Below are positions 1,682-20,467 of a stretch of DNA of 36,620 nucleotides, one piece after another. Each line of letters begins with the position of its first letter. Within the stretch, counting starts at the first letter, position 1. Where the stretch lies: the IMG/VR virus record IMGVR_UViG_3300048771_000229, positions 1 through 36,620 of that record; one strand, 5' to 3'. This DNA is from a virus. The translations under genes and the position numbers were made by a program. The notes beneath the pieces are model-generated. The model was not told the DNA's origin and did not search any database. It worked only from the letters and a program-made list of their open reading frames with translations.

Positions 1682-1897
1682 TCACGAGCCCAGCACGGCC
1701 ACGTCGGCAAGTTCCGCCGCTGCCAGTGCCCGCCTCGCCAACAGCTCGCCGCGCAGAATCTCCATGCTCTGGGGCGCGTTCACCAGCAGCCGGCAGCGAT
1801 CGCCGCCGAGGTGTACGACCTTTACCTCCGTCACATAGCCGCGGTCGTCGATCAAAAGAATCGTCTCGTTCATTCGTCTGGAGAGCACCAAACCCAT
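1682..1897 (-). CDS. csrA: CsrA-family RNA-binding translational regulator
   Basis: The product is 71 residues from the ATG at 1897, with GGAGG upstream. CsrA homodimers bind GGA motifs in mRNA leaders and usually block translation. The N-terminal strand (GLVLSRRMNETI) matches the canonical LILTRRVGE region. The strand LLVNAP and Arg49 in EILRGELLARR correspond to the VNAP core and Arg44 of Escherichia coli CsrA. The C-terminal tail is slightly longer than usual. The stop overlaps a GTG that could start the initiator gene. A hairpin with GGA in its loop at 6373-6392 is a candidate target. The family assignment is firm; targets are inferred. Confidence 0.9.
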   Translation of the reverse strand: MGLVLSRRMNETILLIDDRGYVTEVKVVHLGGDRCRLLVNAPQSMEILRGELLARRALAAAELADVAVLGS

Positions 1898-1987: not shown

Positions 1988-3166
1988 CTACTGCCGATAG
2001 TCCACCAGCTCGTACAGCTCGCGCAGCAGCCGCAGCGGCCGCTCCGTCTCCGCCGCCAGGGGCGCGGGCCATGCACAACCGGACACCTCCGGCAGTTGCC
2101 ATTGCTCCAACAGCGCCGGCAGCAATTCCAAGGTCGGCAAATAGTTGTTGAAGACCACATCGGCGCCGCCGCCGTGCCCCAGTTGCGCCCGCTCGGCGTC
2201 GGGATTTTTGGACCGCAACCAGGTCGCCAAGCGCTTTCGCATCTCCTGCTGCGGTTTGCTGACCGGGGCCGGTCCGCAGCGCTCCACGAGGTGATTCCAG
2301 GTCGAGCTGGTGTGCCGCCAGCCGAGGAGGCGGCCGCCGGTGAAGCCGAAGGTTTTTTGGCCGCGCAGTGCCGCGGCCACGCCCAGCGCCTGCGCCGAGC
2401 AATAGATGATCCGCGGCGTATTGGTTTTGGTCCGCCCCACCAACAGCCAAGAACCCTCCAGATCGTCCAGGTCGGCCCGCAGGGCCTCGCCGATCCGCAA
2501 GCCGGTCAGGAGCAGAAAACCTTGCAACAGCACCACCCGCCGCCGCTGCCCGGCCGTGGCAGGCTTGATGGCCTTGCCGCCGGGCCGCGGCACGGGTGCA
2601 TTGCCCGCTTCCAGATAGCGTTGCCACCAGGCCGCGATCTCCGCGGGCGTGCAGACGACCGAATAGCCCCGCTTGGTCCGCGGCCGTTCTTGTGGATCGA
2701 GGTCCGTAGGCAGACCCAAAAAACGCAGGATCGGCGCACCGTGCCGCCAAAAGCGGCCGATGGTGGCCTCCTTGCGTTTGGCGCAGCGGCGGACGGCCGC
2801 GGTCCCCCGCCCCGCCGCGCGATCGGCCAGAAATCGCGATACGTTTTGCGGGGAAAACGTTTTGGGCATACTCCAGGGCTTGGCCTGCCGCGGCGGCGTC
2901 GCCCGCAGCCAGCGCAGCCAACGCCGCCCCACGTCGTCGCCCAGTTCGCGCAGCGGCGCGTTGATCCCCAAAAATTCCAGCAGCGACCAGGCCGACTGCC
3001 GGTAGTCGATCGGCGTCCGCGGCGAGCCGCCGCGCTGGTCGAGTTCCACGAAAAACTCGGCGATGGCGTCGCCCAGCCGCGTCATGCCGGGGTCCGGTCC
3101 GGGCGCTTCTTTCGCCCTGATCCGCCGCTGTTCCGCCTGCCACGCCTGATACTTGCTCTCGCTCAT
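1988..3166 (-). CDS. int: Tyrosine recombinase (phage integrase), atypical box II
   Basis: The product is 392 residues from the ATG at 3166, with AGAGAGG about 9 bases upstream. An open frame continues to 3313 but lacks phage-integrase-like sequence. Residues 25-150 form a SAM-like core-binding region. Catalytic residues visible are Arg224 (TGLRIGEAL), Lys247 (GRTKTN), Arg310, His331 (LGHGG) and Tyr342 (FNNY). The box II motif HxxR reads QEMR, so its His is Gln307; other family members tolerate substitutions here. It would integrate and excise the element. The tRNA-like fragment at 7716-7762 is the best attachment-site candidate. Confidence 0.88.
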   Translation of the reverse strand: MSESKYQAWQAEQRRIRAKEAPGPDPGMTRLGDAIAEFFVELDQRGGSPRTPIDYRQSAWSLLEFLGINAPLRELGDDVGRRWLRWLRATPPRQAKPWSMPKTFSPQNVSRFLADRAAGRGTAAVRRCAKRKEATIGRFWRHGAPILRFLGLPTDLDPQERPRTKRGYSVVCTPAEIAAWWQRYLEAGNAPVPRPGGKAIKPATAGQRRRVVLLQGFLLLTGLRIGEALRADLDDLEGSWLLVGRTKTNTPRIIYCSAQALGVAAALRGQKTFGFTGGRLLGWRHTSSTWNHLVERCGPAPVSKPQQEMRKRLATWLRSKNPDAERAQLGHGGGADVVFNNYLPTLELLPALLEQWQLPEVSGCAWPAPLAAETERPLRLLRELYELVDYRQ

Positions 3167-3534
3167 GGTGCAAAACCTCTCTGCTGCAGGAGCGGACGGA
3201 TCGGCCCTGTGCCTGTGATGAATCGATCGCGTCCCTGACCATGATCCGGCCGCCTTTAGTCCAGAATAATCGCCCGCCGTGAAACTCCACGTCCAAAAGT
3301 GGGACCGCCGCAATGGGCTTCGACTCGCGCGGCGTTATGATCGTTGTCACCGTTTCGGACTCCAAAACGTGCTCAAAAAACCACGCTCCGCCGGGTGGCC
3401 GGCGAGAGCTTCGGATGTGTAGTCCGAAGCTCGCGCCCCTAGTGCCTTCGCGTCTTGGTGGTCAATTTTTCCCTCGCCCGCTCGCCGGGACGGATCGTCG
3501 GGACGTGCTGTTCGGCCCTGGCGCGCCTACCCTC
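3167..3534. other. 368-bp spacer upstream of the integrase, with hairpin
   Basis: I see no convincing gene. A perfect 10-bp stem (3406-3415 with 3423-3432, 7-base loop) lies downstream of the small-gene operon and could end its transcript, although no T-run follows. A fragment resembling the CACCAAGACGCGAAGG-type dispersed repeat lies near 3441-3461. No strong promoter for the integrase was found. A weak -10-like CATAAC lies near 3336. Confidence 0.5.
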
Positions 3535-3711
3535 TTACACGTCCCATTCGTAGCACTGCCGCGCCGAGTGCAAAACGTCCTCGGCCTCCTTGATGGCCTG
3601 CTCGTGCAGCCAGGGATTGCGGATCGTGCCGGCCAGTTCCTCGGCGGCGCGGGCGTACTGTTCCGCCGCGGCGGCGATCCGCTCGGCGAATTGCTGCTGG
3701 TTCGGCGTCAC
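3535..3711 (-). CDS. Small helical protein, paralogous to the N-terminus of the 4898-5557 product
   Basis: The product is 58 residues from a GTG at 3711. The start overlaps the preceding stop (GTGA) and follows AAAGGAGG by 6 bases. It begins MTPNQQQFAERIAAAAEQYA, which is nearly identical to residues 2-21 of the 219-residue protein encoded at 4898-5557 (TPNQQQYAERIAAAAEQYA), and similarity continues through ARAAEELA. The rest (NPWLHEQAIKEAEDVLHSARQCYEWDV) is helical and charged. It is the last gene of the operon. Function is unknown. Confidence 0.75.
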   Translation of the reverse strand: MTPNQQQFAERIAAAAEQYARAAEELAGTIRNPWLHEQAIKEAEDVLHSARQCYEWDV

Positions 3712-4067
3712 GCTGCACCTCCTTTATCGGTGGCTTCGGTGGTCTCTCGGGCCGCCCTGTTCGCCGCGCAAAGGGCGTTGTGCGCCGCGTAGAGCCGCTG
3801 CAGCGCGTCGCCCGTGGGGTGCCCGTAGCCGAAATCCCCTGGGGCCCCGAGGTGTTTGTACGCGGTCAAGAGATTCCCGAGTTCCTCGTGAAGCTTCCGC
3901 CCCGGATCGCCCGCGGCCGCGCGAAGGTCCAGAAGGGCGACCCAAAACCGCGGCGAGAGATCCCGCAGTTTCCGCCGCTCTTTCGGGTTCTCGAAAACGT
4001 CGGCACACTTCCGGATCGCCTCGCGCAGGGCCGTCTCGGCCCGCTCGACTGACTGCTGTTGGCTCAC
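3708..4067 (-). CDS. Hypothetical protein of the small-gene operon
   Basis: The product is 119 residues from a GTG at 4067, preceded by AAAGGAGG and overlapping the preceding stop by 4 bases. It is predicted mostly helical and contains FWVALLDLRAAAGDP and a Tyr/His-rich stretch near residues 68-92. Its last residues (TTEATDKGGAA) are encoded by a dispersed-repeat relative whose AAAGGAGG end is the ribosome-binding site of the next gene. No family was recognised. Confidence 0.75.
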   Translation of the reverse strand: MSQQQSVERAETALREAIRKCADVFENPKERRKLRDLSPRFWVALLDLRAAAGDPGRKLHEELGNLLTAYKHLGAPGDFGYGHPTGDALQRLYAAHNALCAANRAARETTEATDKGGAA

Positions 4068-4456
4068 GCTCCACCTCCTTTCTCTGTGCTCTCGGTGCCC
4101 TCGGTGGCTTTCTTCCCTTCCGCCTGGTCGATGGCGGCGTCGATCAGCTTCAGGGCCGCTTCCATCTCGTCGTCCTGCGCGCGGGGGCCGCGGGCCCAGC
4201 CCAGGTCCTGGACCGCCTTGGCGGCCGCCAGCAGCCGCGGCGCCGCGGCTAGCAGGGCGAAAACCTTCTGGCCGCCAAGGAAGCGCGGCAACACGCTAAG
4301 ATATTCGCACCCCACCTGGTCGACCAGGGTCAACTGCCGGACGGTGCGATGAAGCGTCGCCCGCCACGACCAGGCCGCGGGTATTTCGAGATCCTTCCCG
4401 GCCACCAGGCGGTGCGCCGCATCGCGTAGTTTCGATCCGTGTCTATCCGTGTTCAT
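4064..4456 (-). CDS. Hypothetical protein starting inside a dispersed repeat
   Basis: The product is 130 residues. The ATG at 4456 lies inside a family A repeat, so the protein begins MNTDRHG. The gene overlaps the upstream gene by 14 bases. The C-terminus ATEGTESTEKGGGA is read from a family B repeat whose AAAGGAGG end serves the next gene. The middle is helical (LLAAAPRLLAAAKAVQDLGW). No family was recognised. Both ends of the protein derive from repeat DNA. Confidence 0.7.
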   Translation of the reverse strand: MNTDRHGSKLRDAAHRLVAGKDLEIPAAWSWRATLHRTVRQLTLVDQVGCEYLSVLPRFLGGQKVFALLAAAPRLLAAAKAVQDLGWARGPRAQDDEMEAALKLIDAAIDQAEGKKATEGTESTEKGGGA

Positions 4457-4491
4457 CGGTGGCTACCTCCTTTCTCGGTGCCCTCTGTGCC
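4435..4491. repeat. Family A plus family B repeats joining two genes
   Basis: A family A copy (4435-4464) is followed at once by family B-like TCGGTGCCCTCTGTGCC (4475-4491). Between them lies AGGAGGT on the minus strand, used as the ribosome-binding site of the 4064-4456 gene. The other family A copies are at 15211-15230, 17451-17482, 20338-20368, 21052-21081, 23351-23381, 25187-25217 and 25540-25570. Confidence 0.75.
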
Positions 4492-4901
4492 AGGGAGTGT
4501 ACGCGCCGCACGAGTTCCTGGAATCCGCATTCGCCGGCATTTTCCGCTGCAGCACCGTCCAGGCCGGCCGGACCACAGAGCATGGCGGCCGCCAGGCTGA
4601 CAAGGAACTCCGCCCGCCGCGGCAGGTCATCGCCCGGCCGGGCGTGCTCGATAATGGCCTGCTGCACGGCGCAGCAGAAGTGGCCGTAGCCGTCGGCGGC
4701 CGTCCGCCCCGGCTCGTTGCGGAGGCTGGCCACCGTGCAGCGGCACACCACCGGCAGCGTGCGGAGGAATTCGATCTCCGCCAACAACTCGCGGCGGTCT
4801 TCGAGCAGTTCGCCGCATAGGGCGCGGTAGGAAAAATGTCCGGCCGGGTATCGATGCCAGAATTGCTCGATCTCGACCGCCCGTTCGTTGCTGATTTTCA
4901 C
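4443..4901 (-). CDS. Hypothetical protein of the small-gene operon
   Basis: The product is 152 residues from a GTG at 4901 that overlaps the preceding TGA (GTGA), with AAAGGAG upstream. It contains several Cys residues (CRC near 53 and CC near 76) and helical regions (ELLEDRRELLAEIEFLRTL). The C-terminus ATDEHG is encoded by a family A repeat, which also carries the start of the following gene. No known family was recognised. Confidence 0.72.
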   Translation of the reverse strand: MKISNERAVEIEQFWHRYPAGHFSYRALCGELLEDRRELLAEIEFLRTLPVVCRCTVASLRNEPGRTAADGYGHFCCAVQQAIIEHARPGDDLPRRAEFLVSLAAAMLCGPAGLDGAAAENAGECGFQELVRRVHSLAQRAPRKEVATDEHG

Positions 4902-5557
4902 ATCCCATCTCCTTTCTCCGCGCGGGCCACGATCAGCGCCGATAGCGCGCGGCCTGCGCCGTCGAGTTTCCGCAGCGCCGCTCGCCATTCGTCCGGAAGC
5001 TCGTACCCGTCGGGCGCAAGTTGTTCCCGACGGCGCGCCAGCAGCGACGTCAGGTTCGCGGGCACGGTGCCACGATCGGTCAAAGCCTGGTCGATCTCAT
5101 CCACGGCCGCGAAGAAGTGCGTCGGAAAGCCGTTGAAGTGCCGGCGGTACTCGTGAAAAATCCCGATCGCGTGCCGCATCGCGCTGCGGAGCGCCATTTC
5201 CGCGGTCATAGGTCCCATAGGACTCATAGGACCTATATTTTTCGGCGCCGACTCCCTCGGCCGACTGCTGAAGTTGCCGCCGCCGAACCGGCTGCTGGTG
5301 GGTTCTGTGCCGTGTGCCACTGGCTCTGCCCGTGTTCCCTGCCGATCGGCGGCGGCCAGCAGGTCCAGGCCGGCCGCGTGGGCATCCCAGTCCCAGGCGA
5401 TTCTGGCAGTCTCCAAGGCGTCCTGCGCCTCGGCCACGGCGCGTGGTCCGGCCTGGAAATTGCGCAGCACGGCCGCCAGTTCCTCGGCCGCGCGGGCGTA
5501 TTGCTCTGCCGCGGCGGCGATGCGCTCGGCATACTGCTGTTGGTTCGGCGTTTTCAT
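4898..5557 (-). CDS. Hypothetical protein with duplicated N-terminal helical domain
   Basis: The product is 219 residues from the ATG at 5557, overlapping the preceding stop (ATGA). Residues 1-30 share their sequence with the 58-residue protein at 3535-3711, evidence of duplication inside the operon. Residues 35-90 are helical. The stretch NIGPMSPMGPMTAEM near 108-122 is coded by a CATAGGTCC/GGACCTATA-type repeat at about 5207-5238, so a repeat sits within the reading frame. The C-terminal third (FFAAVDEIDQALTDRGTVP, LLARRREQLAPDGYELP) looks conserved and globular. Function is unknown. Confidence 0.75.
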   Translation of the reverse strand: MKTPNQQQYAERIAAAAEQYARAAEELAAVLRNFQAGPRAVAEAQDALETARIAWDWDAHAAGLDLLAAADRQGTRAEPVAHGTEPTSSRFGGGNFSSRPRESAPKNIGPMSPMGPMTAEMALRSAMRHAIGIFHEYRRHFNGFPTHFFAAVDEIDQALTDRGTVPANLTSLLARRREQLAPDGYELPDEWRAALRKLDGAGRALSALIVARAEKGDGM

Positions 5558-5739
5558 CGCTGTGCGAACCTCCGCTCTGCCCAGCGCACCGTGTACTCCC
5601 GGACGAACTGGTGTCCGTAGAGTCGCCACATCGCTCGCACCCACGCCGCCAGTTCGCCGCGAAAGCCCGTCGTAAAATCGGCGTCCCGCCCGGCGAATTC
5701 TCGTATCAACCGGAGCGTTTTAGGCTTGATGTTCTGCAT
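5554..5739 (-). CDS. Small basic hypothetical protein (61 aa)
   Basis: The ATG is at 5739 and the stop overlaps the next start by 4 bases (ATGA). The gene starts inside the last 20 bases of the upstream zinc-motif gene. The product is basic and aromatic-rich (RGELAAWVRAMWRLYGHQFVREYTVRWAERRF), suggesting nucleic-acid or protein binding. No family was recognised. Confidence 0.65.
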   Translation of the reverse strand: MQNIKPKTLRLIREFAGRDADFTTGFRGELAAWVRAMWRLYGHQFVREYTVRWAERRFAQR

Positions 5740-6154
5740 TTTTATTCTCTTTCGTGGACTCCTTCCCCACGCACGCGCTGCACAGGTCCGCCGCGACCCA
5801 GTAGCAGGGCTCTTCCGTAGTCGCGTCGCGGCAGGCGCGATCGTCGCGGCAGCCGCACACCCGGCAGACGCGATGTTCCTCCTCAATCACCAGGCCCTTG
5901 TTGCGCGCCCAGCGGTCGAGGTCGGCCTGCGCCTCGGCGAAAATTTCCCGCTCCGGGAAGCTCGGCGCGTTGAATCGCTCCGGGTCCGGGCTGCTGCCGC
6001 GGAGATAAGAAAACGTGCTGAACGGCGCGTTGGGAAAGCCGTCCATCGTGTCCACCATCAAGAGGCGTTTCGGCGGCCAGGCATAGATTTTGGCGGTAAC
6101 CGCGGCTTTCCCCCTGCTACCTCCTGACTCCTGATTCCTGACTCCTTTTTTCAT
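5720..6154 (-). CDS. Cys-rich zinc-motif phage protein
   Basis: The product is 144 residues from the ATG at 6154, which overlaps the preceding stop (ATGA). Residues 95-130 carry CRVCGCRDDRACRD and later CYWVAADLCSACVG, a Cys-rich zinc-binding motif seen in many small phage proteins of unknown role. Cys97, 100, 102, 108, 117, 125 and 128 are candidate ligands. The N-terminal residues VRNQESGGSRGK are encoded by a family C repeat, so the ancestral start may lie near residue 20, before AKIYAWPPKRLL. Confidence 0.75.
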   Translation of the reverse strand: MKKGVRNQESGGSRGKAAVTAKIYAWPPKRLLMVDTMDGFPNAPFSTFSYLRGSSPDPERFNAPSFPEREIFAEAQADLDRWARNKGLVIEEEHRVCRVCGCRDDRACRDATTEEPCYWVAADLCSACVGKESTKENKNAEHQA

Positions 6155-6375
6155 ATCCCCGCTCCCTTCCACACAACACGCGACACGCCCACTCGACACC
6201 GTGCGAGGCCGCGCCCTCGCGGCCTGCGGTCGGCTCTGCTGTCGCGGAGTCGGCGGCTCGATGCGCGGTGATGTACTGACCCTTGGATCGGTGCGTCATT
6301 TGGCGTGTTGCGTGTTTGCGCGGTCGGCCAGGGGAGCGGAGAACATGCCCGAGCATGGGCGCGCGAAGAAGACAT
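6151..6375 (-). CDS. Arg-rich 74-aa protein, first gene of the leftward operon
   Basis: The frame has no recognisable family and is very rich in Arg and Ser. It is supported by a perfect AAGGAG 6 bases before the ATG at 6375 and by a 4-base ATGA overlap with the next gene, the coupling used throughout this operon. The Shine-Dalgarno sequence and start codon lie in a hairpin (6373-6392). It may act as a leader peptide for translational coupling rather than as a functional protein. A frame at 6117-6356 overlaps it without such signals. Confidence 0.5.
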   Translation of the reverse strand: MSSSRAHARACSPLPWPTAQTRNTPNDAPIQGSVHHRASSRRLRDSRADRRPRGRGLARCRVGVSRVVWKGAGI

Positions 6376-6392
6376 GGAAAACTCCTTCCATG
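6373..6392 (-). promoter_or_regulatory. Hairpin covering RBS and start codon, with GGA in the loop (candidate CsrA site)
   Basis: On the minus strand CATGGAA, loop GGAGTT, then TTCCATG form a perfect 7-bp stem with a six-base loop. The Shine-Dalgarno AAGGAG spans stem and loop, and the start ATG at 6375 is the 3' end of the stem. GGA in a hexaloop over a ribosome-binding site is the classical CsrA target, and a CsrA gene lies 4.5 kb downstream on the same strand. CsrA binding is an inference. Confidence 0.5.
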
Positions 6393-6401
6393 AAAGGCAG
6401 G

Positions 6402-6450
6402 TCCGGACGCCCGCCGGCGGCTGATCCGTGCGGATAGGCGGGCGTCCGGA
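6402..6450 (-). promoter_or_regulatory. Two-tier hairpin in the leader of the leftward operon
   Basis: A perfect 14-bp GC-rich stem (6402-6415 with 6437-6450) encloses a 21-base loop that itself contains a small stem (ATCCG/CGGAT). It lies between the promoter at 6608-6637 and the first gene. The hairpin is too GC-rich and lacks a U-run, so it is unlikely to be a simple terminator. It may organise the leader RNA or act in attenuation. Confidence 0.5.
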
Positions 6451-6576
6451 GACTGCGAGGCTCTGGGGTTAGGCCGGTGTAACGCCGTTTCGCGGTAGCG
6501 CCGGCACCAAATCGGTTTCCCGACCAGCCGCGGCCGTACCCAGAGCGAAGAAGCTCTTAGAGTGGCTGTGAGAGGT

Positions 6577-6716
6577 CGCGAAACTCTCTTACACGATTGA
6601 CGCCCACATCATAGATCGAGTGCCCCAGAAAAGTCAAGCGGGGTCGCAAAGAATTTTTCCCTCGCCAAGAAAAGCGAAGGGCCGCCAGAGTTGTCAATCG
6701 TGTAATGAGTTTCGCG
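6577..6716. repeat. Inverted operator-like repeats flanking the leftward promoter
   Basis: The copy at 6577-6601 (CGCGAAACTC then TCT then TACACGATTGAC) and the reverse complement at 6693-6716 (same words joined by AT) flank the promoter symmetrically. The second copy also lies inside the loop of the hairpin at 6679-6741 and contains its own small hairpin, ATGAGTT/AACTCAT. They could be sites for a phage repressor or the arms of a small mobile repeat; no transposase accompanies them. Confidence 0.55.
6608..6637 (-). promoter_or_regulatory. Sigma70-like promoter of the leftward operon
   Basis: Minus-strand TTGACT (6637-6632) and TATGAT (6613-6608) are separated by 18 bases, both 5 of 6 matches to consensus. 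Transcription would start near 6600, giving a leader of about 225 bases before 6375. It lies between two inverted copies of a 24-25-base sequence (6577-6601 and 6693-6716), one of which begins at the predicted +1. Confidence 0.72.
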
Positions 6717-6767
6717 AACTCATCAAACTCTCTGGCGGCCCCAGTGAGCCTTCGGGGGGCTCATTTT
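6679..6767. terminator. Tandem hairpins ending the 6790-7497 transcript
   Basis: A 12-bp stem (6679-6690 with 6730-6741) is followed on the minus strand by a T-rich stretch. Next to it, TGAGCC/GGCTCA (6745-6764) is followed on the plus strand by TTTT. Together they could terminate transcription in both directions and insulate the leftward promoter from the gene upstream of it. Confidence 0.55.
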
Positions 6768-20438: not shown

Positions 20439-20467
20439 GGAGTCAGGAGATTCTTACTCCTGACTCC
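20439..20467. repeat. Family C hairpin downstream of the decoration-like gene
   Basis: GGAGTCAGGAG, seven-base loop, CTCCTGACTCC is a perfect 11-bp inverted repeat 19 bases beyond the stop of the 20486-20908 gene. A further CTCCTGACTCC-type copy follows directly. Confidence 0.6.

Follow-up and report, generated by a model that had tools for sequence, protein, structure and literature searches.

A start-covering hairpin in a csrA-bearing phage is probably not read by CsrA; CsrA-type hexaloops are enriched at gene starts of several other csrA-bearing phages

A virus record of 36,620 bases, whose full length is called the window here, carries on its minus strand a hairpin (6373-6392; CATGGAA-GGAGTT-TTCCATG; 7 bp, or 8 bp with a G-U pair) that covers an AAGGAG Shine-Dalgarno sequence and the ATG of an ORF at the head of a leftward operon. 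The same record encodes a CsrA protein. The locus raises the question of whether the phage CsrA binds this hairpin and switches the operon, as a sequence-only reading had proposed.

The record belongs to a phage, as had been supposed, by its terminase, portal and head protease. Relatives of the portal were found in viral contigs (70% and 65% identity) and in prophage-like loci of Planctomycetota MAGs, which makes a planctomycete the most likely host. The announced csrA gene was confirmed at 1682-1897 (minus strand): its 71-aa product matches PF02599 with 43.2 bits, above the curated cut-off of 27, and has kept the RNA-contact residues R6 and R44, both invariant across nine aligned phage CsrAs. 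RNA binding by RsmA was virtually eliminated in an R44A variant (PMC4066749). The minus strand carries a chain of overlapping genes from about 6154 leftward to 3535, followed by a tyrosine integrase gene (1988-3166; phrog_1, E 6e-9 over 1988-3313), csrA and, next to csrA at 60-1661, a gene whose product weakly matches the DnaA N-terminal domain (DnaA_N) and is a possible replication initiator. The integrase scan of genome contigs yielded no relative.

The hairpin was found where it had been placed, with a perfect 7-bp stem and a six-base loop over the ATG (6375-6373) and the AAGGAG (6387-6382). The ViennaRNA fold has 8 bp and a GAGU loop, the first G of the GGA being paired with U in the minimum-energy structure; the GGA is in the loop as drawn with a probability of 0.81. 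Within a 302-nt leader the stem bases are unpaired with a probability of at most 0.21, except for positions 6385 (0.32) and 6380 (0.46). As a hairpin the element is ordinary: with stems of 7 bp or more and loops of 3-8 bases, 47 perfect hairpins were counted in the window versus 27.7 expected. Among the 66 start-like sites of the window, one has a perfect stem of 7 bp or more whose loop contains the Shine-Dalgarno GGA, as do 5/1727 sites (3 distinct) in other loci; the latter frequency gives a probability of 0.11-0.17 for one or more such hairpins per window. By this chance estimate the hairpin is unremarkable, which is compatible with a function. The Rfam scan of the window retrieved no known family and no CsrB-type RNA. 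Another hairpin, GGAGTCAGGAG/CTCCTGACTCC, is found at 20439-20467.

CsrA/RsmA sites have the reported consensus A(N)GGA (PMC4066749), and CsrA RIP-seq enriched for a CAAGGAUG stem-loop (PMC13418256). A CsrA-type site was accordingly taken as A-N-G-G-A-N in a six-base loop. The element at 6373-6392 resembles the leaders repressed by CsrA/RsmA in having a hairpin, a GGA, an overlap with the Shine-Dalgarno sequence and start codon, and a csrA in the same genome. It differs from those leaders, which have A(N)GGA in the loop in the passages cited (PMC4066749, PMC13418256), because its loop is GGAGTT, with the GGA at the 5′ end and the preceding AA paired, and not an ANGGAN hexaloop. The closing pair of a CsrA hexaloop has a probability of 0.00 at this position, and exposing AAGGAG costs 4.2 kcal/mol; of seven canonical sites tested, six need only 0.0-0.9 kcal/mol. 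This energy argument is not absolute, since the site of csrA in G027, which was counted as canonical, costs 3.6 kcal/mol. The window has no canonical hexaloop site (0/33; 0/24 within −25 to 0). The proposal that 6373-6392 is a CsrA target is not supported, given the wrong loop register, the cost of opening, the lack of canonical sites in the window, the absence of coding signal in the ORF behind the hairpin and the failure of the searches to find a relative that might have conserved it; the phage CsrA is unlikely to read it.

That ORF (6151-6375, minus strand, 74 codons) is probably not a real gene. Its codon log-odds, trained on nine long window genes, is −0.48, and that of the alternative ORF 6117-6356 is −0.27, compared with +0.06 to +0.63 for other window genes (+0.06 to +0.62 for the remaining operon genes, +0.33 for csrA); the wrong-frame ORFs 3724-4074 and 5233-5532 score −0.66 and −0.57. 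It was skipped by a simple gene finder and has no Pfam or PHROG match. The sole tblastn match (locus L016, E 2.5e-4) was rejected as an out-of-frame stretch of terminase. The ATGA overlap of its end with the next gene, and an AAGGAG and ATG that look genuine, count against the non-gene assignment. With such a codon score, no valid homologue and no family, the place formerly given to it as first gene of the operon is doubtful. The first credible operon gene is 5720-6154 (minus strand, codon log-odds +0.29), which codes for a Cys-rich protein of unassigned function; among 392 planctomycete genomes, two contain weak homologues of it. Six further overlapping genes (5554-5739, 4898-5557, 4443-4901, 4064-4456, 3708-4067, 3535-3711) span 3535-5739 on the same strand. 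The 4-base overlaps described for the whole chain of eight are present at five of its seven junctions, the two others being overlaps of 20 and 14 bases. That the hairpin would act as a switch over all eight genes is an unsupported extrapolation. Viral contigs scanned with CsrA, the product of 5720-6154 and the 3535/5557 paralogue pair yielded no relatives of the operon. This pair refers to genes 3535-3711 and 5384-5557, which share a 65% identical N-terminal segment, a gene duplication within the operon. Low-complexity phrases (e.g., tcggtgccctcggtggc, tcctgactcctgattcctgactcc) recur close to gene ends and ribosome-binding sites at 3720-3750, 4075-4110, 4430-4490 and 6120-6146.

Upstream of the ORF, the stretch from just past a promoter-like match to beyond the ATG has a folding z of −2.88, none of 200 shuffles being as stable. 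A 14-bp perfect stem with a 21-nt loop (6402-6450, minus strand), immediately upstream of the hairpin, adds to the stability of this leader. The promoter-like match (6608-6637, minus strand) is sigma-70-like (TTGACT-18-TATGAT, 10/12) and weak, with two such matches in 8.5 kb versus 0.9 expected. It is bracketed by a 33-bp inverted repeat, with arms at 6569-6601 (plus strand, with operator-like TTACACGATTGAC ends) and 6693-6725 (minus strand); the repeat scores 44, compared with a best of 24 among 500 shuffles. This inverted repeat is a better and more orthodox candidate for a switch than the hairpin. Its ends and its GAG-TCGCGAAA-CTC cores are reminiscent of an operator or a recombination site, and its second operator-like arm is found inside the loop of a 12-bp inverted repeat, GGGCCGCCAGAG/CTCTGGCGGCCC, at 6679-6741. 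The proteins scanned included none recognisable as a repressor, which, like the weakness of the promoter match, counts against control at transcription. In the 392 planctomycete genomes the leader DNA had three matches, short and GC-rich, which were judged to be due to chance. The pattern TGGAAGGAGNTTTCCATG matched four viral contigs from two unrelated lineages, a number that was roughly estimated to be near chance.

We favour, with fair confidence, the reading of 6373-6392 as a cis-acting leader hairpin that probably is not read by CsrA, control of the operon being more likely transcriptional by means of the 33-bp inverted repeat flanking the promoter-like site. The hairpin would be part of the long, structured leader that precedes the leftward operon and, by covering the Shine-Dalgarno sequence and ATG 6375, would alone bar ribosomes from this start; the phage CsrA would most likely not be its reader. 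Because ORF 6151-6375 is probably not a gene, the hairpin may be incidental or merely a part of the tightly folded leader. Its stem seals AAGGAG and ATG as in intrinsic Shine-Dalgarno-sequestering hairpins, from which no difference was detected and among which it is best classed. For the window the consequence is small: what the hairpin seals is the start of an ORF that is itself doubtful. A similar stem would also serve an RNA thermometer or a leader-peptide switch with no protein partner, since it is local and seals the start and the Shine-Dalgarno sequence, but no Rfam family and no conserved relative were found and the ORF lacks coding signal, which makes this alternative quite improbable.

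Two other readings give the element a protein partner. The phage CsrA could use 6373-6392 as a non-canonical target, its dimer melting two A-U pairs, taking AAGGA and blocking the start. The presence of csrA with R44 in the same genome, the AAGGAG overlapping the start, and the CsrA hairpins at start sites of other phages (sets A and C, see below) speak for it, but the register and loop are wrong, the opening cost and the closing-pair probability are those given above, none of the 33 positions in the window is canonical and the gene is doubtful; we consider this unlikely. Little credence is given to the 20-bp dyad being a DNA operator for a dimeric repressor instead of an RNA element: it is a perfect 7+7 dyad with further dyads in the same intergenic region, but it is present in a single copy (one 2-mismatch match elsewhere, as many being found in 27 of 100 shuffles) and the promoter-like match lies about 220 bp upstream of it. 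In the widest reading, many environmental csrA phages would run a CsrA regulon of their own, with AAGGAN hexaloops over the Shine-Dalgarno sequences of capsid, portal, terminase, csrA and other genes delaying translation; the window phage would belong to this group and 6373-6392 would be a drifted, non-canonical member. We hold this reading, taken as a whole, to be rather improbable.

The search for csrA among the portal relatives covered 50 of 66 loci, including two host genomes, and the gene was found in nine of the 48 virus records searched, many of which are fragments. A scan of 64 non-redundant loci identified the ANGGAN hexaloop as the most enriched kind of hairpin near gene starts. For a formal count, ANGGAN loops on stems of at least 5 bp with at most one G-U pair were scored from −60 to +20 of called starts, and the expectation was derived from the 255 other XNYYYN motifs (occurrence counts vary slightly between analyses because the search-window edge was treated differently). 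The nine csrA-bearing portal relatives (set A) have 9/154 canonical hexaloops versus 0.47 expected, and 38 non-redundant contigs with csrA, collected independently by way of CsrA (set C), have 20/600 versus 2.28 expected; ANGGAN ranks first of the 256 motifs in both sets. In 35 portal relatives with no csrA seen in their sequence (set B) the count is 3/273 versus 0.81 expected. A count made without the gene caller was concordant: set A had 4/180 versus 1/630 for other first letters and set C 15/543 versus 7/1313, or 9/511 minus its two richest loci.

The specificity of the signal was assessed in sets A and C together. The first letter is selective (ANGGAN 29/754, CNGGAN 3/542, GNGGAN 1/595, TNGGAN 0/338) and so is the register: GGANNN, the arrangement of the window hairpin, is at background (11/2239), whereas ANGGAN is tenfold up. 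Loop length is equally restricted, with 2/759 for five-base ANGGA and 4/746 for seven-base ANGGANN, all hexaloops amounting to 359/92021. A four-base NGGA loop is mildly increased (21/2281), an excess taken to be ANGGAU sites whose A and U were counted as paired; apart from it, the enrichment is confined to the CsrA shape. The clearest case is the 62,640-base phage G442 (L148/L149), which has two csrA genes: 10 of its 33 ANGGAN occurrences within −25 to 0 are in hexaloop hairpins with a stem of at least 4 bp, versus 0.40 expected. Its sites include portal-like, capsid-like and small-terminase-like genes, identified by reading the sequence and not by family search. PHROG matches place the sites of G049 in front of major head protein and nuclease genes and that of G033 in front of a DNA helicase gene, and csrA itself has a canonical hairpin in G027, L185 and L168. 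Of the earlier proposal, the csrA-bearing phage stands, and other such phages do have CsrA-type start hairpins; 6373-6392 as one of these sites is not supported. Outside this window, the counts lend new computational support to the idea that csrA-bearing phages may use CsrA on their own messages.

Several observations bound this idea. Five cultured csrA-bearing phages of gammaproteobacteria are unenriched (1/181), as are five phages whose hosts are taken to be without CsrA (2/214, none over the Shine-Dalgarno sequence). The latter count rules out a generic tendency of Shine-Dalgarno sequences to sit in hairpins as the cause, and the two results together indicate that the enrichment is no general Shine-Dalgarno effect and is not shared by all csrA-bearing phages. 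With stems of at least 4 bp, the csrA-minus portal relatives are also enriched (14/278 versus 2.7 expected), as are the own genes of the host genome G006 (Planctomycetaceae MAG D4_Bin_5; 7/122 versus 1.2 expected), which has 14 CsrA matches. Host CsrA may therefore read the phage hexaloop sites or share them. The contrast between csrA-plus and csrA-minus phages is borderline (pooled sets A, C and D versus B, P 0.087; set A versus B over the Shine-Dalgarno sequence, P 0.052), and pooled csrA-plus phages compared with the phages of CsrA-less hosts gave P 0.10. Set C is enriched away from starts too (13/548 at −200 to −60; 19/1237 at +20 to +300), a pattern not accounted for by a pure start-site model. 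Locally, the csrA hairpin of G027 is not the preferred structure. No sponge-like arrays of ANGGAN hairpins were found in any set (0 clusters of 3 within 250 nt), and an Rfam scan of eight loci gave no CsrB-type RNA.

Thirty csrA-bearing phages have been counted, and loss-of-function tests of why phages carry csrA called for (PMC7366521); the csrA of Burkholderia phage JC1 was described as a moron of unknown role and unknown benefit (PMC9144972). The window phage resembles these phages and plasmids in carrying csrA. Those two reports propose no phage mRNA targets in the passages cited, unlike the present data, in which csrA-bearing relatives of the window phage have CsrA-type hairpins on their own starts. 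Within the titles, abstract openings and passages searched, there was no report of CsrA-shape hairpins over phage gene starts. The CsrA recognition shape at such starts, above all in the two-csrA phage, offers a directly testable answer to why phages carry csrA: the phage would regulate its own messages.

In orthologous genes the hairpin is mostly absent. Judged by eye, an ACGGAG loop is possibly kept, on a different stem, in one case, that of the G034 gene at 254 and its distant homologues from L107 and L138. In the G034 sequence (L120, 230-260), where no csrA was seen, an 11-bp stem with a perfect ACGGAG hexaloop ends at the ATG of a 274-aa gene.
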